From Caldisericia bacterium (lineage in GTDB: Bacteria > Caldisericota > Caldisericia > B22-G15), in contig JASEFN010000001.1 of the NCBI GenBank assembly GCA_030018355.1, positions 62,001 to 126,000 on the forward strand: a DNA stretch of 64,000 bases, given 5' to 3'. The notes under the pieces were generated by a model, which worked only from the letters and a program-made list of their open reading frames with translations, was not told the DNA's origin and did no database searches. The position numbers were made by a program, and so were the translations under genes. Positions 47,410-50,119 of this stretch are shown here, in pieces (the first letter of the stretch is position 1; the number at the start of each line of letters is the position of its first letter).

Positions 47410-48642
47410 TTAGAAGTGGAAAATACCTTTTAATAGATACCCAACAAATGTGCCTAAATAATTCCCTATAATATATCCCCATATCCCAACAAGAATTGCA
47501 GGAACAATTAATTTTGTCCATCCTTTTGCTATAGCCATACCTGCAGCAGTTGATGGTCCACCAAGGTTTGCATTTGAAGCGAGAACACACTCTTCAACAC
47601 TATATTTAAATGCTTTTCCGACTCCTAAAGTAAAAACAATATTTATAATTGCCATAACAAGGCAGAAAAGAAGCAGCACGGGTGCTTTTGTAATAATCTC
47701 ATATAAACTTGCTGGAATTCCTATAACTACAAAGAATAAATAAATCATAAACATTCCAATTTCATTTGAACCCGGAATTTTTGGTAAGAAATTGGGGAAA
47801 AGGGTAGCAAGAATGAGTGTAATAATTGGTATTATCAAATAAATCTGTCCAAAAATTAATCTTATAATAAAAAGAAAACCAGTAGCATCTCCAGGGATAA
47901 CTGTTTTAACCCATGTTGTAAATTTAACAGAAATAAAAACAATAACAAATGCTATTGCAAGGTTTTTTGCAATATCAAGTAAAGAAATTTCTTTTCTTTT
48001 CCAATACATTGCTGCTCTTGTTTTCTCTTGCAAATCTTTTGACTCATTTTCTAATTTTTCAACTTCATCTTCATATGGATGAGGAAATCTTTTCCTAAAG
48101 AAGGTCCATGATGGAATTGCAAGAAGAATTATGAATGCAATTGCCATATTTAAATTATCCGCAACAGTTAGAGCACCTATTAAATTTTCACTTGCTTCAA
48201 AAATTTTAGAAAGAGCAACAAAGTTAACTCCTCCTCCAATATAAGATCCAGTCATCATTCCTGCAGCCTTAAAGTACTCAGGAATAAATGTCCCGAAAAG
48301 AAGGGTTGCAATAAAAGCACCAAGAATTGTACCAACTGCAGAAATATTGAAAATCCCAAACATTCTTCCAGATTCTTTAAGAATTTTTTTTAAATCTGCT
48401 TGAAAGAGAAGTAATGTTACAGCAAGAGGTAAAATATAAGTCCAAACATTATCCCATACAGGTGAATCCGTTGGAACAATTCTTAAATTTGTTGCAGCAA
48501 GACCAAAAATTAAAGCAATAACTGCTCCACTAATTTTTGATGCCCATTTGTACTTCTGTTCAAGATAAATTGAAAGAGATGCAGCAACAACAAGAAATGT
48601 CCATAGAGCCCATGTGTCATCAGGTTTAAACAATGTTGTCAC
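47410..48642 (-). CDS. DUF819 family transporter-like membrane protein, 410 aa
   Basis: A ten-helix membrane protein with the DUF819 (YjcL-like) pattern: an N-terminal LEQKYKWASKISGAVIALI, then AAGMMTGSYIGGGVNFVALS with its glycine-rich helix, and a late NANLGGPSTAAGMA. These look like paired inverted-repeat motifs of a secondary transporter. The substrate is unknown; peptide or amino-acid transport would suit its dipeptidase neighbour. The start is GTG with GGAGG upstream. It diverges from the fluoride riboswitch transcript. Confidence 0.85.
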   Translation of the reverse strand: MTTLFKPDDTWALWTFLVVAASLSIYLEQKYKWASKISGAVIALIFGLAATNLRIVPTDSPVWDNVWTYILPLAVTLLLFQADLKKILKESGRMFGIFNISAVGTILGAFIATLLFGTFIPEYFKAAGMMTGSYIGGGVNFVALSKIFEASENLIGALTVADNLNMAIAFIILLAIPSWTFFRKRFPHPYEDEVEKLENESKDLQEKTRAAMYWKRKEISLLDIAKNLAIAFVIVFISVKFTTWVKTVIPGDATGFLFIIRLIFGQIYLIIPIITLILATLFPNFLPKIPGSNEIGMFMIYLFFVVIGIPASLYEIITKAPVLLLFCLVMAIINIVFTLGVGKAFKYSVEECVLASNANLGGPSTAAGMAIAKGWTKLIVPAILVGIWGYIIGNYLGTFVGYLLKGIFHF

Positions 48643-48692: not shown

Positions 48693-48720
48693 TTGACAAT
48701 TAAATCTTTGGGTATAAAAT
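48693..48720 (+). promoter_or_regulatory. Promoter of the riboswitch transcript
   Basis: TTGACA (48693-48698) and TAAAAT (48715-48720) are 16 nt apart. Transcription would start near 48727, just before the aptamer. Confidence 0.75.
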
Positions 48721-48732
48721 TATATAAAAATT

Positions 48733-48797
48733 AAGGCAATGGAGTCTGCCTTATAAATCTCTTTTAAGAGTGATGACTCCTATTAAAAGGAGTGTAT
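48733..48797 (+). promoter_or_regulatory. Fluoride (crcB-type) riboswitch with Shine-Dalgarno-hiding platform
   Basis: The aptamer fits the crcB motif. A stem AAGGCA (48733-48738) pairs with TGCCTT (48747-48752) around the loop AUGGAGUC. A short hairpin CTCU/AGAG follows (48759-48770), then TGATGACTCC. The loop GGAGTC (48741-48746) can pair with GACTCC (48775-48780) as the pseudoknot. ACTCCT (48776-48781) can instead pair with AGGAGT (48788-48793), the ribosome-binding site of the next gene. The two pairings exclude each other, so bound fluoride should free the Shine-Dalgarno and switch translation on. The motif is known from fluoride riboswitches; the gene it controls here is not. Confidence 0.9.
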
Positions 48798-49037
48798 ATG
48801 GAAAAAGAGACTCTTTCATATGAAGAACTTAAAGAAAAAGTTGAAAATTTAATTCAAGAAAATATGAAATTATCAAAACTGAATGCAACACTTAACTTTA
48901 AATTATATTCTGCTCTGAAAGAGATAGAAAAACTTAATTTTGAAATAGGAGCACTTAAAGGAGAAATACTTTTTTTAAAACAAGCACTTGAAAATGCAAA
49001 AAACAAATTAAAGAAATATAATGAAGAGATATTTTAA
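48798..49037 (+). CDS. Coiled-coil protein under the fluoride riboswitch, 79 aa
   Basis: The protein is a single continuous heptad-repeat coiled coil with Leu/Ile at a/d positions (LNATLNFKLYSALKEIEKLN, then FLKQALENAKNKL). It has no membrane segment or metal-binding cluster and is unlike CrcB/Fluc, ClC-F or known fluoride-riboswitch genes. The ATG at 48798 lies 5 nt after AAAGGAG; a GTG two codons earlier overlaps the Shine-Dalgarno. It could be a dimer-forming regulator or scaffold. The gene is alone on its transcript and ends 2 nt before a convergent gene. Confidence 0.8.
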   Translation: MEKETLSYEELKEKVENLIQENMKLSKLNATLNFKLYSALKEIEKLNFEIGALKGEILFLKQALENAKNKLKKYNEEIF

Positions 49038-49039
49038 AT

Positions 49040-49597
49040 TTAAATTTTTATTTTCTTTATCTCATTTTTATTTGTTGTAAATAAATTTCCGCCAACATGT
49101 AAAAGTAAATTAATTTTAGTTAGATCCCAATGTTTATCAAAAAAATCCTCTTCTACTTTAACATTTAAAACTTCACCTAAAATAATTACATGATCTAACT
49201 CTTTTTTATCAATAATATCAATAACTTTACACTCGATGTTTGCGATACACTCTTTAATTGATGGCACACTCACAAAATCAGATTCAATTGGTGTAAAACC
49301 AGTTAATTCAAATTTATCTTTTTCTCTTCCACTATAAGTTCCACAAATAAGAGACTCTTTTGAATATCTTATATCTGGAATATTTACAACAAATTCTTTA
49401 TTCTCAAGAAGAAGTTTATATGAATATCTTTCTCTTCTTAATGCAAAAGTTAAAACTGGTGGCGTTATGCTTAAAGGAGTAATCCATGCAATTGCTATAA
49501 TATTTGGTTTTTTGTCATTTCCCATTGTTGTTATAAGTGTTGTCGGGTAAGGATGAAGTATTGATGTAAAATTATTAACTTTTATAACTTTTTTCAT
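49040..49597 (-). CDS. Flavin reductase / flavoredoxin family protein, 185 aa
   Basis: The protein has the FMN-binding flavin-reductase-like fold: HPYPTTLITTMG, then ITPLSITPPVLTFALR and an FVVNIPD strand, as in flavoredoxin and the HpaC/Flr group. Length is normal. It moves electrons between NAD(P)H or ferredoxin-type donors and FMN. GGAGG precedes the ATG. It diverges from the flavodoxin gene with a short gap, so the two redox proteins may be co-controlled. Confidence 0.87.
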   Translation of the reverse strand: MKKVIKVNNFTSILHPYPTTLITTMGNDKKPNIIAIAWITPLSITPPVLTFALRRERYSYKLLLENKEFVVNIPDIRYSKESLICGTYSGREKDKFELTGFTPIESDFVSVPSIKECIANIECKVIDIIDKKELDHVIILGEVLNVKVEEDFFDKHWDLTKINLLLHVGGNLFTTNKNEIKKIKI

Positions 49598-49645: not shown

Positions 49646-50119
49646 ATGAAAGGAATAATTTTATATTATTCAAGAACAGGAAATAATAAAAAATTAGCTA
49701 AAATTTTAAAGGAAAAATTAAGTTTTTCTTTAGAAGAAATTATTGATAGGAAAAGAAGAGATGGAATCATTGGTTTTATCATTTCAGGGTATGATGCTTT
49801 AACCAAAAAATTAACTAAAATAGAAAAATTAAACTCTAATATCGAAAATTTTGAACATATTGTTATTGGAACCCCAATTTGGGCAGGGAACATAACTCCA
49901 GCAATCAGAACTTTCCTTTTAGAAAATAAAGATAAAATAAGAAGTTATTCAGTTTACTCAGTTTCTGAATTTGGAGAGAAAAATTTGAAAATTCTGGATG
50001 ATTTTGAAAAAATTATTGGATTTAAAGCGAAATCTTATCTTTTCTTAAAAGATAGTGAGTTAGAAAAAAATATATTTGAAAATAAAGTAAATAAATTTAT
50101 AGATAATATTTTGAAATGA
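49646..50119 (+). CDS. Flavodoxin-like protein, 157 aa
   Basis: The N-terminal YYSRTGNNKKLAK phosphate loop and the GTPIWAGNITPAIRTFL segment match short-chain flavodoxin/FMN-binding proteins. The length of about 150 residues is typical. The expected role is a low-potential electron carrier in the anaerobic metabolism that follows. AAGGAGG precedes the ATG. Beyond its stop is a 135-nt gap with no gene and then the minus-strand terminator. Confidence 0.88.
   Translation: MKGIILYYSRTGNNKKLAKILKEKLSFSLEEIIDRKRRDGIIGFIISGYDALTKKLTKIEKLNSNIENFEHIVIGTPIWAGNITPAIRTFLLENKDKIRSYSVYSVSEFGEKNLKILDDFEKIIGFKAKSYLFLKDSELEKNIFENKVNKFIDNILK

Follow-up and report, generated by a model that had tools for sequence, protein, structure and literature searches.

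Fluoride riboswitches of Rfam family RF01734 bind fluoride together with Mg2+, and this binding stabilizes a pseudoknot in the RNA. Such riboswitches have repeatedly revealed what bacteria need under fluoride stress, and both classes of fluoride exporter were recognized in that way.

The genes reported to be controlled by fluoride riboswitches encode exporters, Na+/H+ antiporters, pyrophosphatase, HAD proteins, enolase, formate hydrogenlyase, MutS and K+/Cl- transport proteins (PMC11139923, PMC2864571, PMC7266159). A small coiled coil was absent from the targets given in these three papers. A literature search also returned nothing naming DUF6062 and nothing tying a fluoride switch to Caldiserica.

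Here we describe a locus in a 64,000-nucleotide stretch of DNA from a Caldisericia bacterium, referred to below as the window. The locus has the same control element as the known fluoride-response genes (CrcB/Fluc, CLC-F, antiporters, pyrophosphatase, enolase, HAD and formate hydrogenlyase; PMC11139923, PMC2864571), but none of those genes encodes a small soluble coiled coil like the protein found in the window.

Results

The fluoride riboswitch and its expression platform

The whole window was searched against Rfam with cmscan. The only match was the fluoride riboswitch, which was aligned over the full length of the model (positions 1-64) and scored 45.1 bits, above the RF01734 gathering cut-off of 34 bits (Table 1). 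An earlier note on this DNA had proposed a fluoride aptamer here and had suggested an Infernal search with RF01734; the search recovered the element on the plus strand with its loop and tail strands both present, but placed its start at 48726, 7 nt before the 48733 given in that note. The Rfam alignment showed the loop AUGGAGUC, the stem CUCU/AGAG and the tail UGAUGACUCCU. The P1 strands, GGCA (48735-48738) and TGCC (48747-48750), form an A-U pair at a position where the consensus has a G-C pair. The loop that they close (ATGGAGTC, 48739-48746) supplies the 5' pseudoknot strand, GGAGTC, which is perfectly complementary to GACTCC in the tail.

In comparison with a typical RF01734 riboswitch, the window element has the same full-length aptamer, P1, second stem, pseudoknot strands and position in a 5' leader, where 8 nt separate the aptamer end from the ATG and a Shine-Dalgarno (SD) hairpin is present. 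It differs in its target, as the gene behind it stands alone, encodes a coiled coil and belongs to a genome in which neither CrcB/Fluc nor CLC was found, and in its platform, an SD hairpin that uses the pseudoknot strand itself as the anti-SD.

A sigma-70-like promoter-like site was found upstream of the aptamer, and the congener G003 also has the TTGACA. This site is a consensus match only, in a region that overall shows no excess over shuffles. The site ends six bases 5' of the aptamer, so the transcript would start with the aptamer; the start predicted about 6 nt past the site is the first aptamer base. On the minus strand, the aptamer P1 and the A-rich leader (48753-48732) resemble an intrinsic terminator with an 8-bp stem and a T-run, an element that might end antisense transcripts.

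Table 1. Features of the riboswitch locus and its neighbors (positions in the window)
Feature	Position	Strand	Basis
DUF819 membrane protein gene, divergent, upstream, outside the unit	47410..48642	-	PF05684, E 2.7e-95
Promoter-like site TTGACA-16-TAAAAT	48693..48720	+	11/12 consensus matches, sigma-70-like
Fluoride riboswitch aptamer (RF01734)	48726..48789	+	45.1 bits, E 2.8e-9, full-length model
P1 stem GGCA/TGCC closing loop ATGGAGTC	48735..48750	+	Rfam alignment
Second aptamer stem CTCT/AGAG	48759..48770	+	Rfam alignment
Predicted expression platform ACTCCT (48776-48781)/AGGAGT (48788-48793)	48776..48793	+	MFE fold
Shine-Dalgarno AGGAG	48788..48792	+	Sequence; 5 nt before ATG
79-aa coiled-coil protein gene, start ATG	48798..49037	+	dN/dS, heptads, AlphaFold2, homologues
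Flavin reductase-like gene, convergent, bounding the unit	49040..49597	-	PF01613, E 6.9e-32; same place in G003

The strand ACTCCT is both the 3' strand of the pseudoknot and the complement of AGGAGT, which contains the SD. The unconstrained minimum-energy fold was the ACTCCT/AGGAGT hairpin, at -18.5 kcal/mol, and the fold in which the tail strand was kept free had -12.4 kcal/mol, which puts the predicted cost of freeing that strand at about 6 kcal/mol. Pairing of the same strand with the SD region was seen in all five intact relatives (G003, G049, G050, G051 and G053), with stems that vary in both length and sequence: GACTCCT in G003, CTCCTACAA/TTGTAGGAG in G051, CTCCTAC/GTAGGAG in G053 and G049, and CTCCTGCATC/GATGCAGGAG in G050. 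The predicted SD hairpin is a conserved pairing with compensatory change across the relatives, although this pairing is partly built in, as the aptamer CUCC complements any GGAG SD. Both the mutually exclusive pairing over the SD and the ON switch at the SD, which the earlier note had claimed, agreed with the predicted folds and with the arrangement in the five relatives, and we regard the window platform as a predicted translational ON switch. A U-run follows the hairpin in G051 and G053, where transcription attenuation may add to the SD control.

Read from 5' to 3', the locus consists of a promoter-like site, an aptamer, an SD hairpin and a conserved coiled-coil gene; aptamer, SD hairpin and gene also follow one another in the related genomes. 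It is very probable that expression of the coiled-coil gene is controlled by the riboswitch.

The protein encoded behind the riboswitch

The ATG at 48798 was taken as the start of the gene, because an in-frame GTG at 48792 falls inside the SD and is missing in the congener. The 79-aa protein was 90% identical to its homologue in G003, with a dN of 0.08, a dS of 1.33 and a dN/dS of 0.061, and third codon positions held 27 of the 42 differences. These values show strong purifying selection on the protein encoded by the 79-codon ORF.

The protein was described in the earlier note as a coiled coil and not an exporter, and our analysis gave the same picture. It had no CrcB or CLC domain match; its residues 8-70 formed nine unbroken heptads, as good as which none of 2000 shuffles was; and AlphaFold2 predicted a single helix over residues 8-78 (pLDDT 93.9). 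In the core, the a positions hold Asn22 and Asn29 and then Leu or Ile, and most d positions hold Leu. The heptads are continuous and the core is like that of GCN4, a pattern expected of a dimeric coiled coil. The charge of the protein is balanced (14 K, 14 E). For a related 140-aa protein, an 87-residue helix flanked by two short helices was predicted with lower confidence (pLDDT 71.8).

The window protein had no Pfam or NCBIfam match above cut-off, and below cut-off it matched only generic or eukaryotic coiled-coil models of Pfam. The proteins from a second family of genomes, here named f7 (G049, G050, G051 and G053), also had no Pfam match above cut-off, and no PDB chain was matched by the family profile. 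One other family member matched NCBIfam TIGR01047 at 4e-4, which was taken as generic coil similarity. Membership in a known small coiled-coil family was therefore rejected. ZapB and SlyX are similar to the window protein in size and in their all-helical coiled-coil nature, but the window protein has no Pfam match to either and no PDB relative by profile.

Distribution of the riboswitch and the gene

RF01734 was searched in 54 phylum genomes (Caldisericota and neighbors), and matches above threshold were found in 6 of them: G000, which is the window genome, G003, G049, G050, G051 and G053. Behind all six, the next gene was a member of the coiled-coil family and started about 15-35 nt past the aptamer core. 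The earlier note had claimed a new class of fluoride-response gene, and these six switches preceding one coiled-coil family support the claim computationally. The proteins have 79 aa in G000 and G003 and 140-146 aa in the four f7 genomes, which gives a range of 79-146 aa for the phylum members. Where records of the f7 family are named, they are MAGs of Caldisericota and Coprothermobacterota, and no neighbor gene was common to the two clades.

Of the 54 genomes, 7 carry the gene, and the switch accompanies it in 6; the 47 genomes lacking the gene had no switch above threshold (hypergeometric 2.7e-7, to be read with the fact that the genomes form two clades and not 54 independent draws, which makes the effective sample smaller). 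In the seventh genome (G052, L048), the gene was kept, the aptamer was degenerate and remnants of the SD hairpin remained (L048:1400-1475), an apparent decay of the switch. Two of the four genomes of the window's genus, G001 and G002, had neither gene nor switch.

Fluoride riboswitches and the ORFs behind them were also surveyed in 386 genomes. Over these genomes, the complete profile found eight members only, followed by noise at E of about 0.005. Seven of the eight, including a fused copy, lie directly behind a fluoride riboswitch. The idea in the earlier note that homologues would also follow crcB motifs therefore held for six of the seven phylum genomes and for the fused copy, but not for G052/L048, which lacks the aptamer. 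Marginal profile matches in G139, G015, G230 and G355 were rejected, as the open frames there are unrelated proteins, for example MutS-like. The sub-threshold riboswitch matches in the Caldisericota genomes G012, G026 and G005 lie within other genes or on the strand opposite to them and look spurious. Another sub-threshold match, in G015 (Caldisericota; L010:1012-1082, 28.7 bits), is followed after about 100 nt by a P-type ATPase gene (L010:1185-2582, PF00122/PF00690) and may be a real diverged switch.

Fluoride export in the host

The Pfam models PF02537 (CrcB/Fluc) and PF00654 (CLC) had no match in G000, G001, G002 or G003; this absence of exporters rests on the two models, for which control searches were positive in 10-12 of 14 well-known genomes. 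Among the f7 genomes, CLC was found in G051 only, and no CRCB match reached the cut-off. Genome G000 has 1.41 Mb and a completeness rating of 100%, and the window aptamer is its only fluoride riboswitch. The window gene thus appears, from these searches, to be the only recognizable riboswitch-controlled fluoride-response gene of its host.

Tolerance would still be by export if the coiled coil served an unlinked membrane protein, such as an unrecognized fluoride exporter or Na+/H+ antiporter, as a regulatory or partner subunit. Fluoride riboswitches mostly control transporters, with Na+/H+ antiporters next (PMC11139923). PF00999 was found behind one switch, and in a host without a CRCB or CLC gene an unknown exporter must be considered. 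However, no linked transporter was found in the relatives except MacAB-like genes downstream in one genus, and the host has no second fluoride riboswitch. We consider such a subunit unlikely, and judge it likely that the coiled-coil protein has a real role in fluoride tolerance.

Relationship between the small proteins and a DUF6062 protein

In a genome of another phylum (G190, L053), a fluoride riboswitch was followed by a 378-aa DUF6062 protein (PF19538), the last 80 residues of which resemble the window protein. This fused form was seen in only one of the 386 genomes. Residues 11-46 of the window protein and the L053 tail align in an ungapped register (LKEKVENL..NATLNFKLYSALKEIEKL and LKLRVEEL..EASSLHYRYWQALEKIKEL), and in the family an ungapped register is shared around (A/S)(S/T)L-x-(F/Y)(K/R)-x-(Y/W). 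The register of the profile alignments was preferred; a full-length MAFFT alignment gave a shifted register.

Because coiled coils look alike, homology was assessed with shuffles that keep every residue in its heptad class. The real pairwise score of the window protein and L053 was reached by 36 of 5000 such shuffles, and the pairwise scores of the window protein and the f7 proteins were reached by 4-9%. With a profile of five f7 proteins alone (140-146 aa), the numbers were 16 of 5000 for the window protein and 0 of 5000 for L053, and a search of 5997 ORFs with this profile placed the DUF6062 tail (2e-4) and the window and G003 proteins (0.02-0.04) right after its own members. When the window protein was held out, a profile of f7 and L053 matched it at E 2.8e-4 among the 5997 ORFs, and 6 of 10000 shuffles did as well (p ~6e-4). 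When L053 was held out, the profile of f7 and the window protein matched it at E 1.3e-6, a result reached by 0 of 10000 shuffles (p <1e-4). In the whole genomes G000 and G003, the sole match of the f7 profile at E<=1 was the coiled-coil gene, with a weak E of 0.14-0.29.

Coiled coils converge easily, and the window protein, the 140-aa proteins and the DUF6062 tail could be similar by convergence, in which case the switches would control several unrelated coiled coils. The proportion of shuffles that reached the pairwise window-to-f7 scores and the generic, sub-cut-off matches in Pfam are consistent with this explanation. In contrast, the held-out profiles, for both the window protein and the DUF6062 tail, argue against it, and so do the single match in each of G000 and G003, the ungapped shared register and the same place behind the same riboswitch. 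Convergence is quite improbable on this evidence, and the comparisons make common ancestry of the window protein, the f7 proteins and the DUF6062 tail highly likely.

The L053 protein shares with the window protein a probably homologous tail and a place behind a fluoride riboswitch, but its Cys-rich DUF6062 domain has no counterpart in the window protein. Since the overlap with DUF6062 proteins does not go beyond the C-terminal tail of this single one, the window protein was not filed under DUF6062. Pfam gave no DUF6062 match in the window protein and none in genome G000, so the window protein cannot act as a DUF6062 partner there.

The transcription unit

No further plus-strand gene lies between the small ORF and the convergent flavin reductase-like gene, and an exporter controlled further along was rejected for this reason. 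The earlier note had called the coiled-coil gene the only gene of its transcript; the convergent neighbor, 2 bp away, favors this, but a search for an intrinsic terminator behind the small ORF found none. Upstream, G003 has a degV-like gene where the window has the DUF819 gene. Beyond the flavin reductase gene, a flavodoxin-like gene (49646-50119) is co-oriented with the small ORF.

Readthrough antisense to the flavin reductase gene could carry transcription into the flavodoxin-like gene, which would put the true target elsewhere and make the small ORF a leader. The lack of a terminator would allow this, and the order of riboswitch, small ORF, convergent flavin reductase gene and co-oriented flavodoxin gene is the same in G003. 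However, selection on the small ORF is strongly purifying at the protein level, the switch is predicted to control the small ORF's own SD, and the other clade keeps the riboswitch and the coiled coil without these neighbors. We therefore consider a leader very unlikely and keep the coiled-coil gene as the target. The suspicion that the ORF, short and without a match to a curated family, is spurious, or that the RNA match arose by chance, was refuted by the dN/dS ratio and by the conserved aptamer (E 2.8e-9), together with the 90% protein identity at dS ~1.3 and the members in seven phylum genomes, and it can be dismissed.

Discussion

We propose, with moderate confidence, that the locus is a fluoride-responsive, translationally controlled single-gene unit, which may provide a dimeric scaffold or adaptor in an exporter-independent response. 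Mg2+-fluoride would bind the aptamer, and the loop GGAGUC would pair with the tail GACUCC. This pseudoknot would withdraw ACUCC from the SD and expose AGGAG, and the coiled-coil protein would be made only under fluoride stress. The protein would form a parallel homodimer, since its core (two Asn, then Leu or Ile at a, and Leu at most d positions) resembles that of GCN4-type dimers, and the homodimer might act as a scaffold or adaptor in the exporter-independent fluoride response. In the fused relative, the homologous tail may serve DUF6062 in the same way. Of the regulator, chaperone and scaffold roles that the earlier note had put forward, we favor the last, as a homodimeric scaffold or adaptor; this is a tentative suggestion, for which the heptad reading and analogy are the basis. 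It is conceivable, if doubtful, that the coiled-coil family is the whole riboswitch-controlled fluoride response in exporter-less bacteria, a form of tolerance based on intracellular protein binding or scaffolding, with the module fused to DUF6062 elsewhere.

The riboswitch is of a known kind, and the coiled-coil family would be new among its targets. The sole switch of a genome without a recognizable exporter precedes, and probably controls, the gene of a small soluble coiled coil; switch and gene are also found together in other genera and, as a fusion, in another phylum. Should the protein turn out to be protective against fluoride, it would represent a route of tolerance other than export, and at 79 aa it is small enough for a direct test in a laboratory strain. 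The family also offers a way to approach DUF6062, which is found in fluoride operons and has no assigned function.

Other genes behind fluoride riboswitches

A DUF6062-like protein (CPxC..CxxH) was encoded by the first substantial gene behind the switch in at least seven loci (L029, L041, L053, L056, L071, L074 and L089), and a crcB-like gene came after it in L041, L071 and L089. Genes for dynamin-like GTPases were found directly behind switches in L037, L051, L059, L061, L066 and L077, with PF00350 confirmed in L037 and L051; the literature search found no link between dynamin-like GTPases and fluoride riboswitches. In G128, a 123-aa ORF with a coiled-coil-like C-terminus (L093:270-640) lies behind another fluoride riboswitch; it matched the family profile at E ~1 and is not a member. 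At L088 (G098:C8), the switch was found before a 134-aa protein resembling a zinc ribbon with HEAT-like repeats, which was followed by an MFS-like gene.
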